The translations under genes were made by a program, and so were the position numbers. Shown in pieces: positions 27,217 through 41,675 of a DNA stretch of 64,000 nucleotides. Below the pieces are notes generated by a model. The model saw nothing but the letters and a program-made list of their open reading frames with translations. It had not been told where the DNA came from and did not search any database. Within the stretch, counting starts at the first letter, position 1. The number at the start of each line of letters is the position of its first letter. This DNA is from Erythrobacter sp. AP23 (lineage in GTDB: Bacteria > Pseudomonadota > Alphaproteobacteria > Sphingomonadales > Sphingomonadaceae), in the NCBI RefSeq assembly GCF_001542855.1, contig NZ_LNBY01000015.1:372001-436000 (forward strand), written 5' to 3'.

Positions 27217-28146
27217 CTATCCGAACAGGATCTTCGACAGGCGTCGGCGGGTCGCGACGACCCAGGGGTCTTCCAGCCCTACCGCTTCGAAGATCTGCAG
27301 CAGCTTGGCCTTGGCCGCACCCTCGTTCCATTCGCGATCGGCTTCGAACATGGACAGCAATTCGTCCGCCGCGATATCGCGCTCGCCCGCGGCAAAGGCA
27401 GCCTCGGCATAGTCGTAGCGCGCCTGCATGTCCCCGCTGCCGGCCTTTTCCTTCAGCGCGGCCAATTCGCCGTCGTCTACTTTACTGCCCGCCAGATCGA
27501 GCGCGCTCTTGGCCTGTTCGATCTGCGGGTCGGTGGCCAGGGCGGGATTGGTTTCGGCAGCCGAAAGCGCGGCTTGCGCCTGCTCGATATGGCCGGCCTG
27601 GACCAGCGCGCGGATAAGGCCCGCATGCGCAGCGGCGTTGTCTGGTGCCATCTGCACGACCTGCCCGAAGACGCCCGCGGCGCGTTCCGCATCGCCTTCG
27701 GCAAGCACTTGCTCGGCCATCGTTACGAATTGCGAGACATCCTGCTGCGGCTGGCCACCTTGCGATTCGTCGCCCGCACCGGGCTGGATCGGCAATTGCG
27801 CGAGAATCTGGTCGAGCGTCTGTTTCATCTGCGATTCGCTGCGCGCACTGGTCAGGTCGGCGACCGGCTGGCCCTGGAACAGCGCATAGATCGTCGGTAT
27901 CGACTGGACCTGGAACTGTGCGGCGATGAATTTTTCCTCGTCGACGTCGATCTTCTTGAGCACCACGCCCTTGTCGGCATATTCGGCGGCGACCTTTTCC
28001 AGCATGGGGGCGATCGCCTTGCAAGGCCCGCACCACTCGGCATGGAAATCGAGGATGACGAGCTTGGTCATCGACGGTTCGACAACTTCGGTCTTGAAGC
28101 GTTCGACCGCTTTCTGTTCATCCATGTTCAGGCCCATGCTCGCCAC
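27217..28146 (-). CDS. cnoX: Thioredoxin-type chaperedoxin CnoX (YbbN)
   Basis: About 309 residues. An N-terminal thioredoxin domain (VILDFHAEWCGPCKAIAPML) is joined to a helical TPR-like part ending in a KAKLLQIFEAVGLEDPWVVATRRRLSKILF motif typical of YbbN/CnoX. CnoX guards proteins against oxidative damage and hands them to GroEL. Both cysteines of W-C-G-P-C are kept, as in the redox-active alphaproteobacterial form and unlike E. coli. GTG 28146 has AAAGGTGG at the right distance; ATG 28137 is an alternative. Confidence 0.9.
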   Translation of the reverse strand: MASMGLNMDEQKAVERFKTEVVEPSMTKLVILDFHAEWCGPCKAIAPMLEKVAAEYADKGVVLKKIDVDEEKFIAAQFQVQSIPTIYALFQGQPVADLTSARSESQMKQTLDQILAQLPIQPGAGDESQGGQPQQDVSQFVTMAEQVLAEGDAERAAGVFGQVVQMAPDNAAAHAGLIRALVQAGHIEQAQAALSAAETNPALATDPQIEQAKSALDLAGSKVDDGELAALKEKAGSGDMQARYDYAEAAFAAGERDIAADELLSMFEADREWNEGAAKAKLLQIFEAVGLEDPWVVATRRRLSKILFG

Positions 28147-28333
28147 GTAGATCCACCTTTCGTTCGAAAAATCTTGCCCGCCCCATGTGGGCATTGTCGC
28201 GCGAATGTGAAGGAGCGTGGGGCCTGCCGCAAGGGTGGCAAAAAATCTGCAAATTCGGCTTGCGAGACTCGCAAGCCGCTGCTAGTTGGCCGCCTCCCCA
28301 CCGGGGCCGTACGGCTTCCGGTAGCGCCAGTGA

Positions 28334-28408
28334 GCGGGCGTAGCTCAGGGGTAGAGCACAACCTTGCCAAGGTTGGGGTCGGGCGTTCGAATCGCCTCGC
28401 CCGCTCCA
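28334..28408 (+). tRNA. tRNA-Gly (anticodon GCC)
   Basis: A 75-base tRNA with the acceptor stem GCGGGCG/CGCCCGC (28334-28340 with 28398-28404), anticodon loop centred on GCC, GTTCGAAT T-loop and an encoded CCA at 28406-28408. It reads glycine codons GGC and GGT. Confidence 0.97.
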
Positions 28409-28617
28409 TTTCCACTCGATAATTATGCGATGAGCCGCAGCTCGGTCTCGGTGTTCGGCAACGCGTTGAGGCTACGGCGCGAAGCACTATGACTGTCGGC
28501 AGACAGGATAGCATATGCCGGCATGCTCCATCATTGCGGTTGACCAGGCTCCCTTGTTGGGTGGCGACGCGGGTAGCATCTCCGGCAAGCCCGGCCGCAA
28601 GAGGGGCAAGGTAGGTG

Positions 28618-29388
28618 TCAGGGGGCGGGTAACCCCTTTTCGAGCATCCGGGCGCCTTTTTCATCCACCGGATAGAACAATTCGATGCGCAGGTCGGTCA
28701 GCGTCAGGTCGAACGCGGTGTTGAACACAGCCTGGACCGACACGAGCTCGAGTTCCCGATCGCCGATCCTGATTCGCGTCGTGAGCGCCGGGGCGAGCGG
28801 TCGGTCGAGGTTTGCGCGCGGCGCGCGCGCTGCCAACTGGCGGGCGATCGCCGCGGTTGCATCGTCGCTGCGCCGCCGCGCTTCGCCACTCACCCGCATG
28901 GCGAGATGGGCCACAGCCTTTTCCCAGTTGACGATTGCTCCCCCAAGGTCGGGATCGGCGGCAATCGCGGCGGCCGGATTGTCGCCAATCCTCAGCCCCA
29001 AATGTGCGAGCAGCCCGCTTCCCGCCTTGTTGGCTCGCACGATCTGCCAGGAAGCATCGAGCGCCCAGGCGGGATAGGGATCGTGTCGCGCGATGAGGCG
29101 CTCCAGCGCATCGAGATACGGGCGAAGCTCTTCGCTGCCGAGCGCGCTCCGCTCGACCACCGGCGCGTAGCCGGCGCTTGTCAGCCAATCGTTTCGTGCA
29201 TGCGGCGGGACCGAAAGAGCATCGGCGAGCTGGCGCACCATGCTCCGGCTCGGTGCGGATTTGCCGGTTTCGAGATATGAGATGTGGCGTGGCGAAACAT
29301 CGGCCGCATCGGCCAGCGCCATCTGGCTGAGACGCCTTCTCTTGCGCCAGCTGCGCAAAAGCTCACCGAACCGGTTTGTCCGCATCAT
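28618..29388 (-). CDS. XRE-type regulator with MmyB-like ligand domain
   Basis: About 256 residues. Residues 5-60 are a helix-turn-helix of the XRE class (LRSWRKRRRLSQMALADAADVS...SYLETGKSAPS). The rest matches the MmyB-like ligand-binding domain (WALDASWQIVRANKAGSGLL). Such regulators often control a neighbouring, divergent enzyme gene, here the thioesterase. ATG 29388 or 29385 are the likely starts, with GGGA upstream; a longer frame to 29457 overlaps the promoter region. Confidence 0.85.
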   Translation of the reverse strand: MMRTNRFGELLRSWRKRRRLSQMALADAADVSPRHISYLETGKSAPSRSMVRQLADALSVPPHARNDWLTSAGYAPVVERSALGSEELRPYLDALERLIARHDPYPAWALDASWQIVRANKAGSGLLAHLGLRIGDNPAAAIAADPDLGGAIVNWEKAVAHLAMRVSGEARRRSDDATAAIARQLAARAPRANLDRPLAPALTTRIRIGDRELELVSVQAVFNTAFDLTLTDLRIELFYPVDEKGARMLEKGLPAP

Positions 29389-29427
29389 TTTCCCATTTGC
29401 TGCCATCGCCTCGGCGGCAAGATTATC

Positions 29428-29444
29428 ATAACCTCGAACGTTAT
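29428..29444. promoter_or_regulatory. Candidate operator between regulator and thioesterase
   Basis: ATAAC-CTCGAAC-GTTAT is a perfect inverted repeat of five-base arms in the AT-rich gap between divergent genes at 29388 and 29505. It is the only clear dyad in that gap. Binding by the XRE/MmyB-type regulator is an inference. Confidence 0.4.
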
Positions 29445-29504
29445 TGCTTTGACGCAATCGAACGGGTCTCGTGGCGCATTATCCGATCCCGGAGGACAAC
29501 CGCC

Positions 29505-29891
29505 ATGACCGACTTCGCAAAATCCATGCCGCTCGCCGAACTCCTCGGCATCGAGATTGCGGTGGCGTCGAGCGAGCAGGTCACGGGAAACATCGAAGTG
29601 CGCCCCGATCTGTGCACCGCGGGCGAGACGGTGCATGGCGGGACGCTCATGGCGTTCGCCGATTCCCTCGGCGCCATCGGCGCCTATCTCGCGCTGCCCG
29701 AGGGCGCGAATGGAACGACAACCATCGAGAGCAAAACGAGCTTCGTCGGACGCGCCGTGCCTGGAGACCGGTTGACCGGCGACGCGCGTCCCATTTCGAT
29801 CGGAAAGAGAATCTCGGTATGGCAAACCCGGATCGAAACGGGCGACCATCGTCTCATTGCCCTGGTAACACAGACTCAGCTCGTCTTGTGA
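29505..29891 (+). CDS. PaaI-type hotdog thioesterase
   Basis: A 128-residue single hotdog domain. The stretch TAGETVHGGTLMAFADSLGAIGAYLALP holds the HGG and Asp pattern of the PaaI group of acyl-CoA thioesterases, and ESKTSFVGRAVPGDRL is the second conserved part. GGAGG lies ten bases before the ATG. Its position opposite the MmyB-like regulator suggests control by it, perhaps with an acyl-CoA-derived ligand. Confidence 0.88.
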   Translation: MTDFAKSMPLAELLGIEIAVASSEQVTGNIEVRPDLCTAGETVHGGTLMAFADSLGAIGAYLALPEGANGTTTIESKTSFVGRAVPGDRLTGDARPISIGKRISVWQTRIETGDHRLIALVTQTQLVL

Positions 29892-29972
29892 CTCAGGACG
29901 CCGGGACAAAAGCTGACGTCTTTTGGCCACAGCCTGAAATGATCTACGTTAACACCATCGCTGAAAGGGACG

Positions 29973-30281
29973 ATGACCATGATGAAGGCTTCCAACCCGG
30001 ATGGCGCAGGCCACGATCCCATTGGATCGGTCGGGACGCCGCTTGCCGATAGCGAGCGGGCAATGGCCTCACGCACCGAGATCGCGGACTGCGGGCTCGT
30101 GCTCGCCGCCAAGGATCGTCGCGAAACGGCGCCTATAGCTTTGAACGAGGGTGCCGAAGCAGCGAGCGGTTCGGCGGTGCCGTATCTCCCAACTCATGTC
30201 GAAGGGGGCGAGCATGTCGCGAAAATCGAGTTGAGCGAAGGCAGTCGCATCGCGCACCATCCGTCAATCGATTGCCCATGA
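29973..30281 (+). CDS. Possible small protein coupled to the methyltransferase
   Basis: A possible 102-residue soluble protein, low in hydrophobic residues, without known motifs. In favour: GAAAGGGA stands just before ATG 29973 (and at good distance for ATG 29979), third codon positions are GC-rich, and the TGA overlaps the methyltransferase ATG in the ATGA manner. Against: composition is unremarkable and no homologue is recognised. The rest of 29892-30277 shows nothing. Confidence 0.4.
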   Translation: MTMMKASNPDGAGHDPIGSVGTPLADSERAMASRTEIADCGLVLAAKDRRETAPIALNEGAEAASGSAVPYLPTHVEGGEHVAKIELSEGSRIAHHPSIDCP

Positions 30282-30886
30282 CTTCCATTTCCCATCACCG
30301 CCCCGGCAATTCCGATCCATCCTTTGGTTATGACGCGGTCGCCGACGCCTATTGCGCTGCCCGCTCTTCCATCGGGCGCGAGGTGGTCGAGACCTGGGCC
30401 GCGCAGCTTCCCGAGGGCGGCGCGGTTCTCGACGTCGGCGCCGGATCGGGCGATCCGATGACGCCCGTTCTTCTGGAAGCGGGTCTCGATGTCTTTGCGA
30501 TCGATGCATCGCCTCGTCTTGTCGCACTCTACCGCGAGCGTTTCCCAGAAGCGCGGATCGCCTGCGAACCGGCGGAAGCGAGCCCCTTTTTCGCGCGCAC
30601 TTTCGACGGAGTGCTGGCGATCGGTCTCGTCTTTCTCCTGCCCGAAGCGAGGCAGCGCGTAGTGCTCGCGAAGATGGCAAGGGCGCTCAATTCCGGGGGG
30701 AGCCTGCTCTTTTCCGCTCCGCGGCAGATGGTCTCCTGGGACGACGCTCTCACCGGACGGCCTTCGCGCTCGCTTGGCGAAACGGCCTACCGCGCGATCC
30801 TGCGCGATGAAGGGCTCGATGTGGTCGCAACTTCGAGCGATGAGGGCTCGAACCATTATTATCACGCGGTGCGGCCCGCATCTTGA
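30278..30886 (+). CDS. SAM-dependent methyltransferase
   Basis: A 202-residue class I methyltransferase. Motif I is VLDVGAGSGDP near residue 50, followed by VFAIDASPRLVAL (the ribose-binding acid) and FDGVLAIGLVFLL (motif IV region). It closely resembles small-molecule methyltransferases of the methyltransf_11/25 group. Substrate unknown. Confidence 0.85.
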   Translation: MTSISHHRPGNSDPSFGYDAVADAYCAARSSIGREVVETWAAQLPEGGAVLDVGAGSGDPMTPVLLEAGLDVFAIDASPRLVALYRERFPEARIACEPAEASPFFARTFDGVLAIGLVFLLPEARQRVVLAKMARALNSGGSLLFSAPRQMVSWDDALTGRPSRSLGETAYRAILRDEGLDVVATSSDEGSNHYYHAVRPAS

Positions 30887-31070
30887 CTGGACAAGCAGGC
30901 CGCGTAGCGGATCGCGCTTTGCCGATCTCCCATTTCCGGTTTTCTGCGCGCAGCGCGGGCGACCTCCCCCAACGGCGTCCAGACCGAGCACCGAGATAAG
31001 GCCCCAGCGAAGTGTCTTACGGCGATGCCGATATGGCCGATACCCGCCTCGATCGGCTATGAGGGCATCC

Positions 31071-31643
31071 ATGCCATTCGATCTGCTTCGCATCGATGAC
31101 CGACTTTCTCATGGCCTGAGGCATTGGCGGCGCACAGTCGGCGTGAAGCAAGAGAGCCTCGCGCATGATATCGGTGTCTCTCAGGCGACGATCTCGCGGC
31201 TGGAGAGCGGTCAAGCGCTCCCCGGCGAGCGCGATCTGCACCAATTGCTGGCGCGCATTTCGGCGAGCCCGTCGGCGCCGTCCGACAGGCAGCTCATTCG
31301 ATTCGTCCGGCAATCGGCCGAGCCGCTCCACCTCGTCTGCGATCTCACCCATCGTTTGCTCGCCGCTTCACCGTCCCGGGCTTCGGAATGGGCCATCGCG
31401 CCCGAGCGGCTCAACGGCCGATCATTGTGGCGATACGCGTCGCCTGACATCGTCGAGGCCGAATGTGGGCTGGGCGCGATCGGATGGCACGAGCGCACCT
31501 CGCTCGAGACACGATTTGTCACCGCTTCCTTCGAATGTTCCGCTATATCCATAAGAAAGAGCGTCGTGCACTGGGTCAGGATTCCGCTGGCAAACGGGAC
31601 GTTTGCCCGCCTCGTTCGAACCGGCAATGCCGGCACTGAATAA
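31071..31643 (+). CDS. XRE-type HTH regulator
   Basis: A 190-residue regulator. Residues about 10-65 form a Cro/C1-type helix-turn-helix (WRRTVGVKQESLAHDIGVSQATISRLESGQALP). The C-terminal 120 residues have no recognised domain but repeat a W-x-R/I rhythm seen in PAS-like sensor folds. GAGGG lies five bases before ATG 31071; ATG 31059 is an alternative. Target genes unknown. Confidence 0.78.
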   Translation: MPFDLLRIDDRLSHGLRHWRRTVGVKQESLAHDIGVSQATISRLESGQALPGERDLHQLLARISASPSAPSDRQLIRFVRQSAEPLHLVCDLTHRLLAASPSRASEWAIAPERLNGRSLWRYASPDIVEAECGLGAIGWHERTSLETRFVTASFECSAISIRKSVVHWVRIPLANGTFARLVRTGNAGTE

Positions 31644-31693
31644 AATATTCGCCCGATTGAGATCGGACACGGCGCGCGGGTAAGCGTTGACCC

Positions 31694-32302
31694 ATGTCCA
31701 ACGACCACGTTTCCCCCGGCTCTCCGCCCCATGAGGAGGGGCGCATGCATGCCCTCCTCGCCTTCCTTCAGAGTGCGGAACGGCTCAAGGACACCTTGCG
31801 ATCGGGGCGAACCGCAATGGGCCGACCGGAAAGCACTGCCGAACACACCTGGCGGCTCTGCCTTCTGGCGATGCTGCTCGAACGCGATCTGCCGGGCGTC
31901 GACCATCACCGTCTGCTGAAAATCTGCATGCTCCATGACCTTGGGGAGGCGATTTCCGGCGACGTGCCTGCTCCCGCGCAGGGCGCAGATGATGGACGGC
32001 ATGCGCGGGAGCGTGACGGTTTCGAGGAGCTGTGCTCCGAGCTTCCGCGCGACCTGCACGAGGAGTTCCTCGAGCTATACGATGACTATGCGCAGGGCCG
32101 TTCGATCGAGGCGCAGTTCGCCAAGGGCCTGGATAAGCTCGAGACCATGCTCCAGCACGTCGCGGGCAAGAACACGCCGGGTTTCGATTATGCCTTCAAC
32201 CTGGGTTACGGAATCGAGGCGACTTCGCGCCATCCCCTGCTCGTACGATTGCGGCGCATCGTCGATGAAGAGACCAGGATCAGCATGACGGGACCGACCT
32301 GA
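31694..32302 (+). CDS. HD-domain phosphohydrolase, YfbR-like
   Basis: A 202-residue HD-domain protein. The metal ligands are in ESTAEHTWR (His), ICMLHDLGEAISGD (His-Asp) and FAKGLDKLE (Asp), the arrangement of 5'-deoxynucleotidases such as YfbR and of eukaryotic HDDC2. It probably removes phosphate from dNMPs, but phosphatase specificity is inferred from motif order only. Confidence 0.85.
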   Translation: MSNDHVSPGSPPHEEGRMHALLAFLQSAERLKDTLRSGRTAMGRPESTAEHTWRLCLLAMLLERDLPGVDHHRLLKICMLHDLGEAISGDVPAPAQGADDGRHARERDGFEELCSELPRDLHEEFLELYDDYAQGRSIEAQFAKGLDKLETMLQHVAGKNTPGFDYAFNLGYGIEATSRHPLLVRLRRIVDEETRISMTGPT

Positions 32303-32456
32303 TCCTTGCGCCGATCTGGGCCGCCAGGCCGAGGCAATCCCGCGAGAGGCCGCCGGGCTGTCGGTGCACGAGATGGTCCCACCGGCATGCGAAACATTGG
32401 CCGGGCTAGTTCGCAGAACCCGGTTCGCGCGTTGCGCGCGCACCGCGGGTGAGATG

Positions 32457-32720
32457 TCAATCGATCAGGGGCAGGTCGCGCGAGATCGAGACGGCTTCGA
32501 CCGCAGGATCGTGTTCGAGCCGCTCAAGCACCGAGCGATCGACCTCGGCGGAATAGATCTGCCTACCGAAGCGTGCACGGCATGCCGTATAATCGGGGAC
32601 CGATGCATCCTTGGCGAGCTTGATCAGTACCAGAAACCGCTCGCGGCGCGCAGGATCGGCGGCTTCGCGCAAGGCGGGAAACCCCTCGATCTTTTTCAGC
32701 GATGACAAATCTATGGGCAT
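32457..32720 (-). CDS. Small protein resembling a subtilisin propeptide (I9-like)
   Basis: An 87-residue protein with GGAG nine bases before its ATG. Its order of elements, strand FLVLIKLA, helix, strand GRQIYSAEV, helix SVLERLEHDP and strand VEAVSISRDLPLI, is that of inhibitor-I9 domains and of the subtilase propeptide encoded just upstream (residues about 126-192 there). It follows the subtilase gene by 84 bases on the same strand. As a separate I9-like protein it could inhibit or help fold that protease. The similarity is at pattern level only, so function is inferred. Confidence 0.6.
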   Translation of the reverse strand: MPIDLSSLKKIEGFPALREAADPARRERFLVLIKLAKDASVPDYTACRARFGRQIYSAEVDRSVLERLEHDPAVEAVSISRDLPLID

Positions 32721-32804
32721 GAACGGCGCTCCAGGGCTTTATCGAATATAGCAATCGCTACGCCGGTCTTCAATTCGCGAGGGTGCAGCCGCGTCAAGAC
32801 CGTA

Positions 32805-34835
32805 TCAGATGTGCGCGCGTCCGAAGCCGCGGCGCGGATGCCAAGTGCCCTTCCTGCCTTTGGGCGGGTCGCGACGTGCTCGGCGGATCAATTCGTCGCG
32901 CAGCTCGTCGATCGACAGGTCCTGCCCGCGCCGCGCCGCATCGGCGTAAAGCAGTGCAATCAGGCCGCTCACCGCCGGCGCCGCCATGCTGGTTCCGGAT
33001 TTGCGCGTCACGCCCCCGGTCGTGCGCGAACGCGCCGCAAACACATTCTGGCCCGGGGCCGAGACTTCCGGTTTCTCGCGCCCGTCGCGCGTCGGCCCGG
33101 TACTCGAATAGGTGTAGATGGGTAAGCTCGCTTTGTGCCCGTCGAAGGCGCCGACCACGATCGCCTTGCGCGACGTCGAGATCGAACCCAACGTATGGCT
33201 CTCGACCGGCTGCGTGAAATAGGATTGCGCGTAGTCGTCGCGTTCGATCCAGGCATGAAAATCGGTGTCCTGCGATGTCATGTTGGTGAGCCGAACGGTC
33301 CACTCGCCTTCCATCACGTTTTCTGCCACCCAGATGCCGATCGCATTATCGCCATTGGTGCGATTGCCGACAATGCTCGCAATGAAGATGATAACTTCGT
33401 GATCGCCCAGCGGGAGGCTGGATCCCGGTCGAACGGGGCCGAAGCGTGTCCCGTCCGGCGCAATGAGTTCGACCTCGAGGCGACGATCGCCATCGTACCA
33501 AAGCTCGAATTCGCCGCCCCATTCCCCCGGATGGCTCCAGCCGATATCGAGGCTGCCCGATGCCGTCGCCCGGCCGCTCGTGTGCGTCCCGTCGCCATGC
33601 GAATTGCCTGCCGCGATCACGATCGCGCGATTGGAATCGCCTTCGACGAGCGCATCGATACCCTGTTCGACCAGCGATGAGCCGTCATGCGGGCCGCCAT
33701 TGGTCCCCAGGCTGAGATTGACGACGCATGGCCTGTCCCCCGCTTCATCGAAGATGTAGCGCACCGCTTCCAGAAGCTGCACCGAATCGCCGAAGTGCTG
33801 GTTCACGACACCCGGCCCCATCCGCGAAATGTCGGATGCTGCGATATCGACGAAGATCAGGGTCGCTTCCGGCGCAATTCCTGCCTGACCCGAACCCGTG
33901 CCATTACCGCCGGCAATGTCCATCACATGCGTCCCGTGCGTGCCGGTTCGTAAGGGCGAATCGGGTTCCGGGCCGTAGCCGAGCGCGTCGTAAGGATCGC
34001 TGGCCGACAAGGCAGCATCGATCTGAGCGGCGCTGTAGCGCCTGCCATAGCCCATCGGGCTGTCGATTGACGCGATTCCAAGCTGGTCCCAGATCGACTC
34101 CAGCCGGCTCGATCCATCGGCGCGCATGAAATTGCGATGCGCGAAATCGCAGCCGTAATCGACAATGCCGATGACGACCCCGTCGCCGCCCTGCGGGTCG
34201 AAGCCCTCCGGGAAGGAGGCCGGATCCGCACCTGTTTGCTCCACGCTCGCGCCCAGCGTCGGATGGACCGGCTGCGCCGCGCGAAGATCGAGAATATCAG
34301 TTTCTGCCGCCAGGGCTTCGACCCGGTCGATAGGAATCCTTCCGGTGACCAGAAAGCCTCGGCCTTTGGCCTTGCCCAGCTGCGCCCCCGCCATGACATC
34401 GGGGTGTTCGCGCCAGGCTTTGAGTGTTCGCACATGCGCGATCACGCTCACTTCATCGGCTTCGGTCGAGGCCGTTGCAAATCCGCGCATGCCCGAGCGG
34501 CGATTGGCGAGGGCGAGCTGCAGGCGCGGATCGAGGTCGGCATTTCCCGACACTGCGAGTTCGCGCAGCGCTCGCGCGCCGAGCGCGCGCGAATTGGACA
34601 CCTGCGTTGCCAGGCGCGGGCGCGCTGTGCCCAGTATGCCCGCCTCGGTCAGCATTATCGCGGCGTCATCCAAAACCGATTCCGGAAATCGGCCGACCTG
34701 CCCGGAGATGACCGATGGGAGTCTTTGGCCGGCGACCGCGCGTGCGAGCAAGGAGGCGAGACTCGGCAGCCGGTGGCGGACCGCGTCGCCTTCGCGCCGT
34801 GGCGACGGCTTTTCCTTGTCTGTTTCCTCGCCCAT
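32805..34835 (-). CDS. Subtilase (S8) with inserted beta domain
   Basis: A 676-residue serine protease without signal peptide or membrane helix. Residues 1-125 are helical and unknown; 126-192 look like an I9 propeptide; the catalytic domain has Asp226 (IVDYGCDFAH), His300 (THGTHVMD), oxyanion Asn411 (IAAGNSHGD) and Ser616 (SGTSMAAP). Between Asn and Ser, residues about 428-535 form a beta-rich insert with GEWTVRLTN, like the P-domain/jelly-roll of convertases or clostridial Csp proteases. The set is complete, so activity is likely. It is third in a four-gene unit with a lipoprotein and a membrane protein. Confidence 0.9.
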   Translation of the reverse strand: MGEETDKEKPSPRREGDAVRHRLPSLASLLARAVAGQRLPSVISGQVGRFPESVLDDAAIMLTEAGILGTARPRLATQVSNSRALGARALRELAVSGNADLDPRLQLALANRRSGMRGFATASTEADEVSVIAHVRTLKAWREHPDVMAGAQLGKAKGRGFLVTGRIPIDRVEALAAETDILDLRAAQPVHPTLGASVEQTGADPASFPEGFDPQGGDGVVIGIVDYGCDFAHRNFMRADGSSRLESIWDQLGIASIDSPMGYGRRYSAAQIDAALSASDPYDALGYGPEPDSPLRTGTHGTHVMDIAGGNGTGSGQAGIAPEATLIFVDIAASDISRMGPGVVNQHFGDSVQLLEAVRYIFDEAGDRPCVVNLSLGTNGGPHDGSSLVEQGIDALVEGDSNRAIVIAAGNSHGDGTHTSGRATASGSLDIGWSHPGEWGGEFELWYDGDRRLEVELIAPDGTRFGPVRPGSSLPLGDHEVIIFIASIVGNRTNGDNAIGIWVAENVMEGEWTVRLTNMTSQDTDFHAWIERDDYAQSYFTQPVESHTLGSISTSRKAIVVGAFDGHKASLPIYTYSSTGPTRDGREKPEVSAPGQNVFAARSRTTGGVTRKSGTSMAAPAVSGLIALLYADAARRGQDLSIDELRDELIRRARRDPPKGRKGTWHPRRGFGRAHI

Positions 34836-34877
34836 GCCTTTCTCCCTTCTGGTTAGGACAGACCGCCCGGGCGGTCT

Positions 34878-35708
34878 TCAGGCGGCTGCGCCGCGCTTCA
34901 GTGCCTGCTCCTTGATCAGGTAGGGTGCCAGCGAGACCCACATGATGGTGACAAAGCCAAACAATCCCGCCCCGGTTTCGGCGTTCACCGGCGCGCTGAA
35001 ACCGCCTTCTTCCACCCAGAAGCCGCCGGTGGCGCCGACCCAGAGGAGGAATGACACGAGCGAGGCGCCGATCTCGTTCCAGGCTGGTTCGCCATCCTCC
35101 TTGGTGGCGAAATAGCGCAGGGCGATCACGAAGCAGGCGACGATGACGATCACCAGTGCCACGATCGACGCGCTGCCATCTGCGAGCGTCAGCCCGAGCG
35201 GAAAAAGAGTGGCCGCTTCGATCGGAAACAGCTTCGCCACATCGGCGACATAGGCCGGAGCCTCACTGGTTTCTTTCCCCGCCGCTGCGCTTCTCTCGCT
35301 GGTGATACCCGGCCGGGTCGTGCGCGATGTGCGGCTCGAAGCAACCCGAAGCGAACCCGACAGAGTGCCGAGCTGGCGCGCGGCGCGGCTCGTCGCGCCA
35401 ACCAGCTTGCTGGCCCTCGCATTGGCTTTGGTCGCCGCTGCGATAACGCTCTGGATCGCCTTCGCATCCTTGGGATCGGCAGCTTCTGCTTTGCTTCGGG
35501 CGTCTCGCGCAAGGGCGACGACTTGCTCGCCATCGGGCACTTCGCCACCGCCGAATTGATCCTCTATCCGCTCGCCGAGATTGCCCGCTAACCAAGCGCG
35601 CTGCAGGAGAATATTTCGGCTCTGCGGGTTCTGAACCCGCATGGCGAAATTGCTCAGGCTGTCTCGCATTGCTTCGAGTGCATCGATCACTTCGGTGGCC
35701 GAACTCAT
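34878..35708 (-). CDS. Helical-domain three-TM membrane protein
   Basis: A 276-residue protein. Residues 1-110 are predicted helical and charged, 110-150 are Ser/Arg/Thr-rich and probably flexible, and three membrane helices follow: ASIVALVIVIVACFVIALRYF, EIGASLVSFLLWVGATGGFW and GLFGFVTIMWVSLAPYL. No known domain is seen. It lies 10 bases downstream of the lipoprotein gene and 42 bases upstream of the subtilase gene, so all three are surely co-transcribed. It could be the membrane partner or substrate of the protease. Confidence 0.75.
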   Translation of the reverse strand: MSSATEVIDALEAMRDSLSNFAMRVQNPQSRNILLQRAWLAGNLGERIEDQFGGGEVPDGEQVVALARDARSKAEAADPKDAKAIQSVIAAATKANARASKLVGATSRAARQLGTLSGSLRVASSRTSRTTRPGITSERSAAAGKETSEAPAYVADVAKLFPIEAATLFPLGLTLADGSASIVALVIVIVACFVIALRYFATKEDGEPAWNEIGASLVSFLLWVGATGGFWVEEGGFSAPVNAETGAGLFGFVTIMWVSLAPYLIKEQALKRGAAA

Positions 35709-35718
35709 GCAGCCCTCC

Positions 35719-36699
35719 TCATTTCAGTGGCGGGAAAATTGCGGCTATCTGACTCAGGATCGAAAAGACCGCGCGCCGGTTCTCGCGCGCGATCCGCGCG
35801 CGCTCGGCCTCGCTGAAATCGCCGGCGAGCGCCCGGCGCATAGCCTGATCGACCTTGGCGAGCTCGGCCAGCACCTTCGCCAGCTCCTGGGCTGCCTCGG
35901 TATTGGCACCGCTCACGAGATCGTTCGCTGCGGCAATCTCACGTATCAACGCACGCCGCTCGGCAAAAGGCGCGCGCTGCGCCTCGCTCGCATAGGCAAG
36001 CGAAAGCGCGAGCAGCAGCTGGGTATCGGCATTGCCTCCCTGAAGGCTCTCGAGCCTGCCAATCGCCGTTTCAAGATCCTCGATCAGCATCGCGGTGTTG
36101 GCACGATCGACCAGCGCGCGCACCTTGCGAACCTTCATCTTGGTCTCGTACATATCGCTCAGCGTCTGCACCAATGTCAGCACCGCATCCTGTCGTTCGC
36201 CGGTGAGCGGGCCCAAATCGATCGCCGCGCCCCCGGTAATCCGATTGATGTCGGTCGCCGCGACCGCGAGCGTGCTCGTCGCGGTCGCCAGCGTGAGGCG
36301 CGCTTCATCGGGCTTTTCCTCCAGAATATCGGCGAGCGCTGCCTGGTATGCAGCAAGCCCCGCCACGATAGTCGTGAGCGTAGCCAGCCGATCTTCCGCA
36401 ATCGGTTCGAGCGAGACCTCTATCTGACGGGCTTCGGGCACGCCTTGAAGGTCGCACAGGCTGCGCGACCCATCCCATTGCCGATCCACGGTAATGGTGC
36501 CGCCCCACATGCAGAGGGGATCGCTTGCGACGAGCGCGACGGCCGCTTCGCGCCGCCGCAACTGGAGCTCGTTTGTGTAATTGCGCGCAAGGGCAACCGT
36601 CGACCTCGTGACTGTCGAGGCCGCGCCGGCCCGTTCGAGCTGCAGGTTCGACGCCGCGCAGCCGGACAGCAGGAGCGCTGCAAGAATGGCGATGCGCAT
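35719..36699 (-). CDS. Helical lipoprotein, first gene of the subtilase unit
   Basis: A 326-residue lipoprotein (lipobox L-S-G-C, Cys14). The mature part is mostly alpha-helical, with coiled-coil-like stretches such as residues 210-320 and many Ala and Glu, and two cysteines (DPLCMWG and SLCDLQG) that may pair. No domain is recognised. It opens the operon that continues with the three-TM protein, the subtilase and the I9-like protein. Confidence 0.75.
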   Translation of the reverse strand: MRIAILAALLLSGCAASNLQLERAGAASTVTRSTVALARNYTNELQLRRREAAVALVASDPLCMWGGTITVDRQWDGSRSLCDLQGVPEARQIEVSLEPIAEDRLATLTTIVAGLAAYQAALADILEEKPDEARLTLATATSTLAVAATDINRITGGAAIDLGPLTGERQDAVLTLVQTLSDMYETKMKVRKVRALVDRANTAMLIEDLETAIGRLESLQGGNADTQLLLALSLAYASEAQRAPFAERRALIREIAAANDLVSGANTEAAQELAKVLAELAKVDQAMRRALAGDFSEAERARIARENRRAVFSILSQIAAIFPPLK

Positions 36700-37082
36700 A
36701 TCGATGCCCCTTCCCCAAGATTGCGCGGTTTGAGTAACACAAGGTCACGAAAACCTCAATCGAGTGTATTTCCCCCGTCAATACCTACCACCGAATTGTT
36801 TTTCTATTTTCGGTTTCGTCTCGTCGAAAACGGAAACAGTAAACGCGATGTTGAGTGGAATAATGAACCAAGCCAATTCACGATCCGGGGGCGGTGTATC
36901 GCGGGATGAAGAGAAAGATTGGCCATACCCGTTATACGTCATTTCGGGCGGCCCCTGAAAAAGGGGCGGCCGCTCGCATTGCCCTCCCGTTGCATCGGCT
37001 TCCAGGTCGAACTTCCAGCGCATGGTTTGCGAAGTATCGCGGACCATTCTAGCCTTGCGCGCGTTCGACGCGGGAGGAACCT
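36700..37082. other. AT-rich gap between divergent units
   Basis: This 383-base gap between the subtilase unit (-) and the gene at 37083 (+) is clearly more AT-rich than the rest, especially 36760-36900. TTTTCG...CGAAAA and TTTCG...CGAAA dyads lie near 36805-36830, and GCCCCT-GAAAA-AGGGGC (36951-36967) is a hairpin. An open frame at 37047-36778 (-), 89 codons, has AAGG before its ATG but uses rare codons (AGG, ATA) and has no recognisable content. I take the gap mainly as promoter region. Confidence 0.35.
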
Positions 37083-37637
37083 ATGCGCGCACTGGCTTCG
37101 TTCGGATTATTGACATTGGCGCTTGGCTTGGCGGTGCCAGGGCAGGCGCAGGATCGACCGGTCACCGACCAGCGGCCCGATGCCGAAGACGTGGTCACTA
37201 CTCCGCTGACCGATCTCAACCTCAAGAAGGGCGAAATTCCCGGACTGCTCGAGCGAGCGGTCGAACGACCCTACGATCTCGAGGGGCTAGGGAGCTGCAG
37301 CGCGCTGATCGGCGAGGTCGAGCGGTTCGACATCATGCTCGGAGACGATTTCGATCTTCCCGCGGAGGAACTGGGCGGCCTCGGCGCGGGCGCGGTTGGC
37401 AAGATGGCAGTCAGTTCGCTCATTCCCTTTCGCGGCCTGATTCGCGAGGTGTCGGGCGCGCGCAAGCAGCAGGAGCGATTGGAGACCGCGATCCGTGCGG
37501 GACTCGCGCGGCGCGGCTTCCTGAAGGGCATCGGTGCCCAGCGCGGCTGTGCCTATCCGGCGCGACCGGCACGCGAAGCCGATATTGCCCGCATCGTCGC
37601 GCAACGCCAATCGGAAGAAGCCGAACGCGACGAATAG
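37083..37637 (+). CDS. Secreted protein of unknown function
   Basis: A 184-residue protein with a signal peptide cut after PGQAQ (about residue 23). The mature sequence has two cysteines, GSCSALI and RGCAYPA, and the segment FRGLIREVSGARKQQERLETAIRAGLARRGFLKG that I have seen in general form in sphingomonad periplasmic proteins without assigned function. GGGAGG precedes the ATG. Confidence 0.7.
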   Translation: MRALASFGLLTLALGLAVPGQAQDRPVTDQRPDAEDVVTTPLTDLNLKKGEIPGLLERAVERPYDLEGLGSCSALIGEVERFDIMLGDDFDLPAEELGGLGAGAVGKMAVSSLIPFRGLIREVSGARKQQERLETAIRAGLARRGFLKGIGAQRGCAYPARPAREADIARIVAQRQSEEAERDE

Positions 37638-37702
37638 ACCGTCTTCGCGGCGGTGCCGTTCGTCGTTCAGCCGCGTATTTTCGTCGAACGAAGGCGAATC
37701 TG

Positions 37703-39988
37703 ATGCGAAAAGGGGTTGCGCGCGCGGGCGGGCTCTCTATCAGGCACGATATGTTGTATCGTTCTAAACACTCGCTCCGCCTTTTCGGTTCCACCCTGTC
37801 GGTCGCGGCCATGCTTGCCGCGGGTCCGGCGCTTGCCCAGACGGCCGGCGACACGGCCGTCGCCACGCAGGCAGCTGCCGACGACGAGCCGCCCGCCGAA
37901 GATCTGCACGATCGCCGGATCGACTACCAGGGCCGGATCGTGGTCAGCGCCGAAGGGATCCGCGATCTCGACCTGCTGGCGGGCACCGATGTCGTCGAGG
38001 GCGTCGAACTGCAGCGCAATCTCGACGGGCAGATCGGCGACGTGCTCGACAGCCAGCCCGGCGTTTCGGCCAGCGGTTTCGCTCCGGGCTCCTCGCGTCC
38101 CGTATTGCGCGGTTTCGCGGGCGAACGCGTCAAGGTGCTGGTCGACGGGATCGGTGCGATCGATGCCTCGAACACTTCGGACGACCACGCGGTGTCTATC
38201 AACCCGCTTGCTGCCGAACGCATCGAAGTTCTGCGCGGCCCGGCCGTGCTGCTGTTCGGCAGCCAGGCAATCGGCGGCGCGGTCAATGTGATCGACAAGC
38301 GCATCCCACGCCGCATTCCGGCCGAACCGATCCATGTCGACCTTCTGGCGCGCGGCGATACCGCGAGCAATCTGCGCGAGTTCGGCGGATCGGTCGACGT
38401 TCCGCTCGGCAGCAGTGGCGTCGTGTTCCACGCCGACGGATCGTGGCGCGAAACCAACGATCTCGAGGTCGCCGGTTTCACCGTCGCCCCCGCTCTGCGC
38501 GCCGAACTGCTCGAAGAGGCGGCGGAAGAAGAGGAAGAGGGCGAATTCGAGGGGGCCGAGGAACTGCGCGAGGCGGCCGAACAGCGCGGCGTGCTGCCCA
38601 ACAGCGCGACCGAGACCTGGACCGCCAATGCCGGCCTGGCCTTCTTCCGCGGCGATAGCACGCTCGGCGTATCCTTCGGCGTCTACGACACCGCTTACGG
38701 CGTTCCCGGAAGGCCGGGTGCTGGCCACCACCATCATGGCGAAGAAGAGGGCGACCATGATGACGGGGATCACGAGGATGAGGATCACGGCGAAGAGCAC
38801 GGCGAAGAAGAGGGTGAAGAGCTGGTCAGCATCGGCCTGCGCCAGTATCGCGCAGACCTGCGCGGTGACATCTTCCTCGGCGAAGGCTTCTTCGAGCGGT
38901 TGAAGATCCGCGCGGGCTATTCCGACTACACCCACACCGAGTTCGAAGGCGACGAAGTCGGCACCGTGTTCGACGTCGAAGGCCTCGAAGCGCGCGCCGA
39001 ACTGGTGCAGGACACCTCCGGCCCTTGGCGCGGATCGCTCGGCGTGCAATATTACTGGCGCGACTTCGAAGCCATCGGCGCCGAAGCCTTCGTCGCGCCC
39101 AACCGTACCGACCAGATCGCCGTTTTCGCACTGCAGGAATACAGCAGCGGACCTTTCCAGATCGAAGGCTCGGCGCGTTTCGAAAGCACTGCTGTCGATG
39201 CGACCACGCTCGGCATAGAGCGCAGCTTCGACACGTTTTCGGGTGCGCTCGGCTTCGCCTACGATGTCACGCCGACCGTGCGTACGGGGATCAATCTTTC
39301 TCGCGTCGCACGCGCGCCTTCGGGTGAAGAGCTCTATTCGAACGGCCCGCACATCGCCACGCAAGCCTTCGAGATCGGCGATCCCGATCTCGATGAAGAA
39401 AAGGCCTGGGGCGGGGAAATCTTCGCGCGCGGCAGCATCGGCGGGGCGAGCTTCAGCATCGCTGCCTATCGCAACTGGTTCGACGACTTCATCTACCTGA
39501 CCCCGAACGGCGAGGAAGAGGACGACCTACCCGTGTTCTTGTTCCTCCAACAGGATGCGACCTACACCGGGATCGAGGGCGAACTCGCGTTCGACTTCAT
39601 CGATACCGGCGATCTCACCGTCGGCACCGAATTGCTGGGCGAATACGTTCACGCAGAGCTCGACGACGACACCTTTGTCCCGCGCATCCCGCCGCTTCAC
39701 CTGGCGGCGGCGCTGACCGCCTCGACCCGCGCCTTCGACCTGCGCGGCGAGGTCGAGTGGTACGACGATCAGGACGACGTCGCCGCGTTCGAAACTGCCA
39801 CCGACGGCTTCACCCATGTGAATGCCTCCGTCGCCTGGCGGCCGATGCGCGACAATCCGAACATCAGCATCATCCTGAAGGCAGACAACATCTTCGACGA
39901 GACCGGTCGCCGCCACACCAGCTTCACGAAGGATTTCGTGCCGCTTGCGGGCCGCAACTTCAGCGCGAGCGTGCGCGCCAGCTTCTAG
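37703..39988 (+). CDS. TonB-dependent receptor, probably for zinc (ZnuD-like)
   Basis: About 761 residues: signal peptide (ends GPALAQ), plug domain with VLRGPAVLLFGSQAIGGAVNV, and a beta barrel ending in aromatic F. Between 38724 and 38820 an extracellular loop carries HHHH and repeated H, D and E, the feature of zinc receptors such as ZnuD. GAAGG stands eight bases before ATG 37703; ATG 37751 gives a shorter, more usual signal peptide. The stop shares a CTAG with the convergent DoxX gene. Zinc is inferred from the loop. Confidence 0.85.
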   Translation: MRKGVARAGGLSIRHDMLYRSKHSLRLFGSTLSVAAMLAAGPALAQTAGDTAVATQAAADDEPPAEDLHDRRIDYQGRIVVSAEGIRDLDLLAGTDVVEGVELQRNLDGQIGDVLDSQPGVSASGFAPGSSRPVLRGFAGERVKVLVDGIGAIDASNTSDDHAVSINPLAAERIEVLRGPAVLLFGSQAIGGAVNVIDKRIPRRIPAEPIHVDLLARGDTASNLREFGGSVDVPLGSSGVVFHADGSWRETNDLEVAGFTVAPALRAELLEEAAEEEEEGEFEGAEELREAAEQRGVLPNSATETWTANAGLAFFRGDSTLGVSFGVYDTAYGVPGRPGAGHHHHGEEEGDHDDGDHEDEDHGEEHGEEEGEELVSIGLRQYRADLRGDIFLGEGFFERLKIRAGYSDYTHTEFEGDEVGTVFDVEGLEARAELVQDTSGPWRGSLGVQYYWRDFEAIGAEAFVAPNRTDQIAVFALQEYSSGPFQIEGSARFESTAVDATTLGIERSFDTFSGALGFAYDVTPTVRTGINLSRVARAPSGEELYSNGPHIATQAFEIGDPDLDEEKAWGGEIFARGSIGGASFSIAAYRNWFDDFIYLTPNGEEEDDLPVFLFLQQDATYTGIEGELAFDFIDTGDLTVGTELLGEYVHAELDDDTFVPRIPPLHLAAALTASTRAFDLRGEVEWYDDQDDVAAFETATDGFTHVNASVAWRPMRDNPNISIILKADNIFDETGRRHTSFTKDFVPLAGRNFSASVRASF

Positions 39989-40443
39989 TCGGAGCCGGCG
40001 TCGCCCGCAGCCTCGGCCTTGCCCTCGGCGCGGGCGGCGCGGACTTCGGCGTCGAGCCGCTTCGCGCGCTCGTCGACCACCTCGATCCGGCTGCGCTGCT
40101 GGCCATAGGCGAAGACCATCAGCAGCCCACCCATGATGGCGAGGTTCTTCAAGGCCATCGCAGCCTGGACCTGGTCGGTCACCTGCTCGTGGAAGAACAG
40201 CGTCGCGAGCGCGGTGAAGACCACCAGCGCCAGGCTGGCGATGCGGGTCATGTAGCCGCTGGCCAGCACCAGCCCGGCGACGATCTCGAACACGCCGACG
40301 GCCAGCGCCATGCTGCCGGGGAAGGGCGATTCGGCTTCCATGTAGGCGGCCGTTCCGGCGGTATCCATCACCTTCCCGAATCCGGCGAATACGAACAAGG
40401 CGCCGAGCAGGATGCGTCCGACCAGTGCAGCGATTGTAGCCAT
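39985..40443 (-). CDS. DoxX-family membrane protein
   Basis: A 152-residue protein with four membrane helices and the DoxX start MATIAALVGRILLGALFVFAGFGK. A charged C-terminal tail of about 35 residues (RIEVVDERAKRLDAEVRAAR) follows. DoxX proteins are linked to redox and envelope stress; the exact reaction is unknown. GGGGGAGAAG precedes the ATG. Confidence 0.88.
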   Translation of the reverse strand: MATIAALVGRILLGALFVFAGFGKVMDTAGTAAYMEAESPFPGSMALAVGVFEIVAGLVLASGYMTRIASLALVVFTALATLFFHEQVTDQVQAAMALKNLAIMGGLLMVFAYGQQRSRIEVVDERAKRLDAEVRAARAEGKAEAAGDAGSD

Positions 40444-40499
40444 CGTTTCTTCTCCCCCGTTGATTGTCCTTGCGAAACTCCCGCTCGCGCGGCGGGTTC

Positions 40500-41675
40500 C
40501 TATTCCTCCACCGCGAAGGTCAGCTCGGCATGCTCTCGCAACCTTTCGACCAGCGCTTCGCCGAGGAAGGAGCCGGGCGTGCCGATGCCGCCTTCGGCGT
40601 CGCAGTCGAGCAGTGCCATGCCGGTTTCCGCGAGCATCCGGCTGGTCGAGCCGTAGCCCGGATCGTACTTGCCCTTCACGCCGTAGTGGAGCCGCTTTCC
40701 TTCCGGCCATTCGCCCACGAACAGCACGTCGTAATAGCCGTTCTCGCGCTCTTCCTGGCTCGGCCCTTCGCCCGGTTTGGGCGGCTTGGCGCCGAAGGGA
40801 TTCTTGAGCATTTCGACCACCGCATTGGCGGCGGCCTTACCCGCTTCGCCAGGGCTGGTGAGCATCATCTCGTCATAGCGGAAATCCTCGCCATAGGGAT
40901 GCCCGCGCAGGAAATTGGTGCGATGCACGTTCTTGGTGTTGATCGTCGCCATGATGAAGGGCGCGGCCCATTTGCCCAGTTCCTCTTCATGGCGCGGGAT
41001 CATGCCGCTGGGCTGGTCGGGGCCCTCGAAACCGGGTGTCAGGCCGAAGGGATCGTTCAGAACCTTGATGATGCCGGGATTCTTCGCGGCCGCCTTCATC
41101 GTAGCGGTCAGGCTGGCTGCGGTGCCGCCCGAGAAGGTGCCCTGCATCGCACGCACCCGGCCCTTCACGCGCGGGGCGGGCGAACCGTGGCGCGCGACCG
41201 CTTCCTTCTGCAACATCAACACGCCGAGATCGAAGGGGATCGAATCGAACCCGCTCGAAAAGGCGATCCGCGCGCCGCTCTGCTTCGCCGCTTCGTGGTG
41301 CTTGTCGATCTGTTCGCGCATCCAGGCGGGTTCGCCGCACAGATCGGCATAGTCCGTGCCGGTCTTGACGCAGGCGGCGACCAGCTTGTCGCCATAGAGC
41401 TGGTAGGGTCCGACCGTGGTCAGCACGACCTTCGTACGATTGCACATCGCCTCCAGGCTCGCCGGATCGTTCGCATCGGCGACCACCAGCGGGGTGGATT
41501 TGGGGGCGCCGATTTCGTCGCGTACCGCCTCCAGCTTGTCCATGCTGCGTCCGGCCATTGCCCATTTGGGTCCGTCGTCGCGGCTCCCGTATTCGCGCAC
41601 GAAGTGCTCGGCGACGAGGCGCCCCGTATATCCGGTTGCGCCATAGACGATGATATCGAATTCGCGGTCGGCCAT
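40500..41675 (-). CDS. Saccharopine dehydrogenase-like / trans-acting enoyl reductase family protein
   Basis: A 391-residue protein. The N-terminal Rossmann part IIVYGATGYTGRLVAEHF binds NAD(P); AMAGRSMDKL and ALVVADANDPASL follow. Overall it matches the family of mycobacterial trans-acting enoyl reductases and eukaryotic SCCPDH, named saccharopine dehydrogenase-like without that activity. FSSGFDSIPFDLG is a signature. The substrate is unknown, probably a lipid. Confidence 0.85.
   Translation of the reverse strand: MADREFDIIVYGATGYTGRLVAEHFVREYGSRDDGPKWAMAGRSMDKLEAVRDEIGAPKSTPLVVADANDPASLEAMCNRTKVVLTTVGPYQLYGDKLVAACVKTGTDYADLCGEPAWMREQIDKHHEAAKQSGARIAFSSGFDSIPFDLGVLMLQKEAVARHGSPAPRVKGRVRAMQGTFSGGTAASLTATMKAAAKNPGIIKVLNDPFGLTPGFEGPDQPSGMIPRHEEELGKWAAPFIMATINTKNVHRTNFLRGHPYGEDFRYDEMMLTSPGEAGKAAANAVVEMLKNPFGAKPPKPGEGPSQEERENGYYDVLFVGEWPEGKRLHYGVKGKYDPGYGSTSRMLAETGMALLDCDAEGGIGTPGSFLGEALVERLREHAELTFAVEE

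Follow-up and report, generated by a model that had tools for sequence, protein, structure and literature searches.

A cytosolic-type subtilase and a propeptide-like small protein as the recurring core of a putative protease/antiprotease module in Erythrobacter sp. AP23

Described protease systems and the window locus

The S8 peptidase IetS is paired with the AAA ATPase IetA, and this pair is one of several described systems against which we set here a unit of four genes from Erythrobacter sp. AP23. The unit lies in a stretch of 64,000 nucleotides (contig NZ_LNBY01000015.1, positions 372,001 to 436,000; hereafter the window) and encodes a predicted lipoprotein, a transmembrane (TM) protein, an S8 subtilase and a small protein resembling a stand-alone subtilisin propeptide (genes 1 to 4). 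An initial annotation had proposed a conserved four-gene envelope system for it, which the loci examined do not support; what the present analysis adds is the homology of the small protein to the subtilase's own kind of prodomain, a probable promoter for the small gene, the changing partners of related subtilases and the placement of the unit in a tRNA hotspot. With IetAS the window shares a subtilase that is weakly similar to IetS models (E 3.3e-5 in PADLOC; E 0.019 in NCBIfam); it differs in that the NCBIfam score falls far below the cut-off (13.3 versus 900 bits), and no AAA ATPase gene is found among the four.

The nearest solved relative of the window subtilase is the germination protease CspB of Clostridium (4i0w; E 5e-39 over residues 217-655), and both proteins carry an N-terminal prodomain. 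In the CspB report (PMC3567191), the prodomain is described as remaining bound, with its C-terminus blocking the active site, and as inhibiting in trans as well; trans inhibition by a prodomain is thereby established for a relative, and the window small protein may do likewise. The same report describes a jellyroll insertion in CspB, a feature that in Csp-type subtilases lies between the regions of the catalytic Asn and Ser, and the window alignment runs through that part (phmmer, continuous through residues 420-545, a comparison of sequence only). However, the window locus appears to encode a second propeptide as a separate gene, the partners differ, these bacteria are not known to have a spore context, and the subtilase does not reach the NCBIfam cut-offs for Csp proteins (108.9 versus 1250 bits for CspBA, 98 versus 675 for CspC). 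Subtilisin propeptide-like inhibitors of the I9 type, such as POIA1 (1itp), offer a further comparison in that a model of the window small protein matches subtilisin propeptides first; unlike them, the small protein lacks a Pfam I9 match, is bacterial and adjoins a subtilase whose prodomain is homologous to it.

As set out in PMC12799240, MBL pronucleases are activated by trypsin-like proteases and caspases in several immune systems (gated nuclease-protease pairs, or canu loci). The likeness here lies in distant subtilases of the wider family, whose genes overlap MBL genes; the window protease is of the S8 type, not a trypsin or caspase, an inhibitor gene is apparently present, and no MBL-type pronuclease was found either in the unit itself or in those hotspot genes that were scanned, nor does one adjoin the window subtilase. 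In fungi, according to PMC10989679, the subtilase HET-Q2 cuts its membrane-acting partner, the gasdermin HET-Q1. An S8 protease gene beside a potentially membrane-acting partner is a likeness by analogy; the two are set apart by the fungal origin of that system and by the lack of any gasdermin match for the lipoprotein or the TM protein in Pfam, NCBIfam and PADLOC, and cutting of the TM protein would be a putative parallel. Judged by the features compared, the window unit belongs neither to the gasdermin systems nor to the gated-nuclease or IetAS ones. Among the matches listed for the open-access PMC literature, we found no bacterial subtilase with an adjacent stand-alone propeptide gene, which is weak evidence of novelty as subscription papers and preprints lay outside the scope of the search.

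The subtilase and its propeptide-like neighbour

It is quite probable that genes 3 and 4 form a protease-inhibitor core. The subtilase matches Pfam Peptidase_S8 (E 7.8e-33), and the Asp-His-Ser triad (D226, H300 and S616) and oxyanion Asn (N411) of the S8 fold are in place, all four residues being invariant across an alignment of 29 sequences. No hydrophobic signal-like stretch was seen in its N-terminal sequence, and the protein looks cytosolic, with no signal peptide apparent; the cytosolic-type subtilase with intact triad that had been called at the outset is thus confirmed in its sequence features. The surface signal envisaged in the same annotation fares otherwise, in that nothing shows its involvement and the protease looks cytosolic.

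The propeptide-like character originally ascribed to the small protein is corroborated by both homology and modelling. When 35 small proteins were compared with 29 prodomains of partner subtilases as hhalign profiles, the two aligned over 75 columns with a probability of 77% and an E value of 1.9e-5, a value that holds for that one comparison alone; the prodomains of six of the 35 are missing from the set, as the pattern used by the script did not excise them. BLASTP of the window small protein against the window subtilase found nothing, small-protein profiles found no solved chain among PDB sequences, and no curated Pfam family was matched, Inhibitor_I9 included, the only entry being SopD at E 0.34. 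A model of the small protein built from a 25-row alignment (predicted local distance difference test, pLDDT, 74) retrieved subtilase propeptides first in Foldseek (best E 3.5e-3, with a BLUF protein third). In VIA-align the top match was a short chain titled PAM Protease (Z 6.5), followed from Z 6.1 to 5.2 by the propeptides of Tk-subtilisin, subtilisin E, BPN', EpiP, cucumisin and PCSK9, with POIA1 at Z 4.5; of the 25 highest rows, almost every one can be recognised from its title or known identity as a subtilase propeptide or proprotein. The match of fold is middling, a point that tells against the assignment: the unrelated HisG and NapD, which have a similar sheet, reach Z 5.1, and the CspB prodomain only 4.7. 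As such, the Z values alone are weak, and it is together with the sequence link to the prodomain that they make a stand-alone subtilisin-type propeptide the best reading of the small protein, which would then probably act as a free inhibitor of the subtilase.

Relatives of the subtilase were fetched from plasmids, genome contigs (54 loci), viral contigs (1 locus) and further genomes. Genes were called with our own script in 65 loci (the window and L004-L068, leaving out L011, which was not annotated), and with L035, L047, L064 and L065 yielding no subtilase open reading frame (ORF), 61 annotated loci remain. A hidden Markov model of the small protein, built from six loci that are all among those it matched, found a small protein beside the subtilase in 35 of the 61 (threshold E 1e-4), several of the 35 being near-copies of one another. 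In all but one of these, the small gene lies on the same strand, downstream of the subtilase and at most 286 bases away (34/35); in Azospirillum sp. SYSU D00513 (L046:6277-6594) it is on the opposite strand and upstream. Pseudomonadota, Cyanobacteriota, Bacteroidota, Acidobacteriota and Planctomycetota are all represented among the 35. When 49 chosen subtilases were placed on a tree, all 33 that have a small protein fell into one group (one change, versus a mean of 13.8 in shuffles, with 0 of 500 as low), within which phyla are mixed; the branch support of the group is 82/58 only, and the tree warns of long branches. All 16 rows without a small protein, which include Paenibacillus, a viral contig, Methanoperedens and the MBL-linked subtilases, fall outside it. 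Left out of the tree were L041 and L046, whose subtilase ORFs are short, and the distant L045, L055-L063, L066 and L067. The conserved core is genes 3 and 4, and the four-gene combination was found in no other locus examined. In a phage collection, distant subtilases were found in eight records, and in none of these did the match extend over 80% of the query. Beside two distant subtilases we noticed 91-residue ORFs (L005:1066-1341 and L051:8932-9207) that look propeptide-like by eye and match neither the small-protein profile nor Pfam.

The gap between the two core genes contains a promoter-like site, TTGAAG and TATATT spaced by 17 bases, with a TG ahead (extended -10), located 24 bases upstream of the small gene's start codon. 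It is one of two sites returned by a sigma-70 scan over 4.8 kb in which 1.1 were expected; the scan is not enriched overall, a point against the promoter reading. The other lies inside the subtilase gene, and the one in the gap is on the right strand. Among the relatives' gaps, the E. coli consensus scored at least 8 in 22 of 33, versus 6.9 in single-base shuffles (near-copies included). A second pattern (CTTGAC, a spacer of 17-19, TATAWT), which we take to be of the alphaproteobacterial type, was applied to 28 gaps, five near-copies and one zero-length gap being left out. At least 9 matches were reached in 15 of the 28, versus a dinucleotide-shuffle mean of 2.4 and maximum of 6 (200 shuffles), while none of 56 other gaps on the same strand of these loci did so; at 8 matches the figures are 20 of 28, 7.8 and 7 of 56. 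This pattern was chosen post hoc, after the relatives' gaps had been viewed, which likewise tells against it; the enrichment is large, however, and the first test, with the E. coli consensus, was not tuned to the pattern. It is probable, then, that the inhibitor gene is also expressed independently, from its own promoter, and such an arrangement, in which the inhibitor gene lies behind that of the protease and is separately promoted, follows, by analogy, the logic of an antitoxin.

The lipoprotein, the TM protein and the partners of related subtilases

No credible family match was obtained for the lipoprotein, the TM protein or the small protein among Pfam, NCBIfam and PADLOC models. The helical lipoprotein of the initial annotation does bear a lipobox; it had no match in those three collections up to E 1 and, besides itself, a single weak match (E 6e-4) among 367 genomes. 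The TM protein consists of a helical N-terminal part (in a low-confidence model), a linker rich in Ser, Arg and Thr (about residues 117-150) and a C-terminal domain with three, possibly four, hydrophobic segments, so that its helical part agrees with the earlier description and the three TM helices given there may be four. A search of 41 genomes, its own among them, gave one relative of the membrane domain, a 144-residue stand-alone protein in G048 (L086:6291-6725; E 8.2e-7). In 385 genomes of the class the TM protein had, besides itself, only weak matches (E 1.7e-3 or worse); a two-row profile of its membrane domain found none besides its own in the same 385 and one weak match in 299 genomes of the phylum (G1030, E 2.4e-4), which by its sequence is probably due to chance. 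Relatives of the lipoprotein and the TM protein were found neither on plasmids nor in viral contigs, and the G048 protein likewise had none on plasmids; the genome-contig collection was scanned with the subtilase alone. Two leads on the TM protein were set aside: the Pfam family Phage_holin_2 aligns to its membrane domain along almost the full length of the profile, with an E of 0.13 that falls far short of the cut-off, and a single-sequence model (pLDDT 51) was too poor for its fold to be used. As the lipoprotein and TM genes are near-orphans, the unit as a set of four does not amount to a conserved system; for half of the unit, homologues occur independently and without linkage in the other loci, which the initial annotation itself had named as telling against its proposal. 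It is more careful to describe the unit as a recurring pair to which a membrane partner has been recruited locally.

Two rhizobial loci (L007 and L015) have a parallel layout, in which a lipoprotein, a 152-residue helical protein, the subtilase and the small protein follow one another. The layouts are alike, and common descent is unsupported by the sequences: against a profile of five rhizobial rows, the window lipoprotein scored -5.6 bits, a value reached by 432 of 500 shuffles and by 373 of 500 block shuffles, and the window TM protein scored 0.5 bits, reached by 100 of 470 scored shuffles and by 155 of 500 block shuffles; neither homology was adopted. Agrobacterium Ti and other rhizobial plasmids also carry a lipoprotein together with a helical protein of about 150 residues (L082:6001-7334, L083:6001-7313, L084:5992-7502 and L085:6001-7371), where the annotation shows no subtilase in the surrounding 6 kb or so (L085 is unannotated and was read as ORFs). 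The genes downstream of this rhizobial pair vary, being weakly HATPase-like, amidohydrolase-like by eye or, in L007 and L015, the subtilase.

The partners of related subtilases change from locus to locus. A phospholipase D-like (PLD-like) protein follows the pair of subtilase and small protein in seven loci (five with near-copies merged; cluster C1), the one in L006 matching PLDc_2 at E 1.1e-21 with weak DrmC similarity. Four loci have an upstream pair of other uncharacterised proteins (clusters C3 and C4), and in the remaining loci neighbours recur in two or three loci at most. Genes of distant subtilases overlap those of MBL-fold proteins by 4 bases in four loci (L004:3060-4349, L013:6578-7927, L098:5524-6825 and L099:5581-6930); the three MBL proteins scanned (L004, L013 and L098) match LmuA/Avs1a/RTasMBL models, with a best E of 8.5e-44, and S8-gated-nuclease pairs thus seem to exist. 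A caspase-domain gene lies nearby in L013, and in L098 a nearby gene is annotated as a Shedu SduA-domain protein. In L043:6719-11013, a subtilase of 1019 residues overlaps a patatin-like phospholipase gene by 4 bases. With regard to minor features of these loci, three of the four with MBL-linked subtilases lie on rhizobial plasmids, and the PLD-like gene of L006 (L006:8241-9845), to which six others are similar, encodes an N-terminal part weakly like the N-terminal domain of plant NARROW LEAF 1 (E 8e-4, below cut-off).

Proposed mechanism and its alternatives

We tentatively read the locus as a cytosolic protease/antiprotease module: once the inhibitor is lost, the subtilase would be free to cut a partner, here possibly the TM protein. 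To this reading we accord somewhat less than even confidence. The module would work like CspB with its bound prodomain and like protease-activated effectors, in a manner reminiscent of immune and cell-death devices triggered by proteases. The subtilase would be synthesised with an N-terminal prodomain, which folds and keeps the enzyme blocked, as in CspB, and the small gene would supply a second, free copy of the prodomain, made from the operon and probably also from its own promoter. This copy may bind the active site in trans and hold the mature enzyme off until a signal of stress or invasion halts inhibitor synthesis, destroys the inhibitor or competes for it. The freed protease could then cut its partner, at the window locus most likely the TM protein and at its linker, and the cut might release the membrane domain, with membrane damage or signalling as the outcome; the lipoprotein would serve as a sensor or envelope anchor. 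A broader proposal, which we regard as doubtful, is that of a widespread protease-antitoxin system, in which a cytosolic CspB-like subtilase is held by a separately promoted propeptide copy that is lost on infection or stress, whereupon changing partners are activated: a helical membrane protein in the window, PLD-like proteins in rhizobia and beta-proteobacteria, and gated nucleases or patatins in distant cousins. Such a system would be a bacterial counterpart of HET-Q2/HET-Q1, with an antitoxin derived from the protease's own prodomain. If so, it would show how an antitoxin can evolve from a protease itself, through release of a prodomain copy that comes under a promoter of its own, and subtilases with dedicated inhibitors would join the proteases that switch on bacterial immune effectors. 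The function of a protein family from five phyla, for which no described role was found in our searches, becomes testable with two genes and one point mutant.

Several observations weigh against a role of this kind. General subtilase and IetS similarity are the only matches of the four window proteins to defence models, none of them specific, and the neighbouring hotspot genes match such models through helix-turn-helix (HTH) or methyltransferase domains only (capH, RmrA, mad2). Among the selected neighbours scanned with families, we recognised no membrane or effector gene next to the pair for most of the 35 loci, and in three Azospirillum loci (L022, L024 and L025) the pair sits between genes that look housekeeping-like by eye. 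The MBL-linked relatives have no small protein and are only distantly related, at 32-38% identity. Changing partners are, by analogy, the behaviour of immune-system proteases, and the small-protein clade itself is without such a proven link. The notion of a protease and a partner that it cuts, already present in the initial annotation, fits the neighbourhoods of some related subtilases and is opposed by the finding that no homologue of the lipoprotein or TM protein accompanies any other subtilase.

The last point bears on a strong rival, namely that only genes 3 and 4 function together, as protease and inhibitor or chaperone, and that the lipoprotein and TM genes are unrelated neighbours, co-transcribed hotspot cargo with a job of their own; we consider this a serious possibility. 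The search for the same gene order in other genomes recovered genes 3 and 4 and, in the 34 other loci that have both, no lipoprotein or TM homologue in up to four called genes per side (phmmer E 1e-4; some loci are cut by contig ends). The tRNA-Gly hotspot collects unrelated cargo, and the rhizobial pair of lipoprotein and helical protein occurs both with a subtilase (L007, L015) and without one nearby (L082-L085). On the other hand, genes 1 to 3 share a strand with gaps of just 10 and 42 bases, and L007 and L015 repeat the layout, although homology to the window pair is unsupported. A different objection concerns the small protein, which might be mainly a folding chaperone or dosage buffer, the pair then serving general protein turnover or processing. 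Subtilase prodomains, that of CspB included, do act as chaperones (PMC3567191), and some pairs stand among housekeeping-like genes by eye; but the subtilase already has a prodomain of its own, and the patchy presence, plasmid settings and phyla-mixing tree suit a mobile accessory module better, so that we hold this explanation to be unlikely. A further alternative, along the lines of the initial annotation, is envelope stress or contact signalling, in which the lipoprotein would sense a surface signal and pass it through the TM protein to regulated proteolysis by the subtilase. Lipoprotein, TM protein and protease do share one apparent operon, but no relatives tying the former two to signalling were found, the subtilase is without apparent signal peptide, and no known envelope-stress gene was recognised among the scanned hotspot genes; we regard it as very improbable.

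Gene layout and genomic setting

The features of the locus are collected in Table 1. The four ORFs run in one direction on the minus strand with intergenic gaps of 10, 42 and 84 bases, their coordinates agreeing with the initial annotation in this respect; all begin with ATG, and all have the codon-position GC content of coding sequence (0.69-0.76 at third positions versus 0.44-0.53 at second positions). The AT-rich promoter region described upstream of gene 1 stands as regards composition, the GC content being 0.584 at 36500-36999 versus 0.604-0.672 in the other 500-base windows of 28000-41000; the sigma-70 scan gave no promoter-like site there.

Table 1. Features of the four-gene unit and its borders in window coordinates.
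Feature	Position	Strand	Basis
Gene 1, predicted lipoprotein, 326 aa	35719..36699	-	lipobox LLSGC read by eye
Gene 2, TM protein, 276 aa, candidate substrate or effector	34878..35708	-	hydrophobic segments
Gene 3, S8 subtilase, CspB-like, 676 aa	32805..34835	-	Pfam, 4i0w match, triad
N-terminal prodomain of the subtilase, about residues 111-192	34260..34505	-	hhalign homology to small protein
Gene 4, stand-alone subtilisin-propeptide-like protein, 87 aa, presumed trans inhibitor	32457..32720	-	locus counts, model
Promoter-like site in the gap of genes 3 and 4	32745..32773	-	sigma-70 scan, enrichment across relatives
Upstream intergenic region of lower GC, presumed operon promoter	36700..37082	.	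no consensus site found
tRNA-Gly(gcc), border of variable hotspot	28334..28408	+	comparison with other genomes

The unit sits in a variable hotspot (28409-37810) that is bordered by the tRNA-Gly gene and, at 37811, by a TonB receptor gene; such a setting is what one expects of an accessory module. No exact repeat of the tRNA of at least 10 bases was found in 28409-38000, and hence no att-like repeat at the far border. The subtilase was found in 0 of 36 genus mates (E 1e-10), and of 396 genomes from the order only 3, one of which is its own, have any relative of it (E 1e-15); relatives also occur in plasmid settings. Other cargo of the hotspot comprises two HTH regulators, a thioesterase, a methyltransferase and an HD-domain protein. 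Comparison with other genomes shows how the interval varies: in G003 the tRNA-Gly and TonB genes stand about 0.3 kb apart with the interval nearly empty, G014 holds about 9 kb of other, unrelated genes between them, and G005 has other cargo ahead of the TonB gene, which by eye includes copper-oxidase-like genes.

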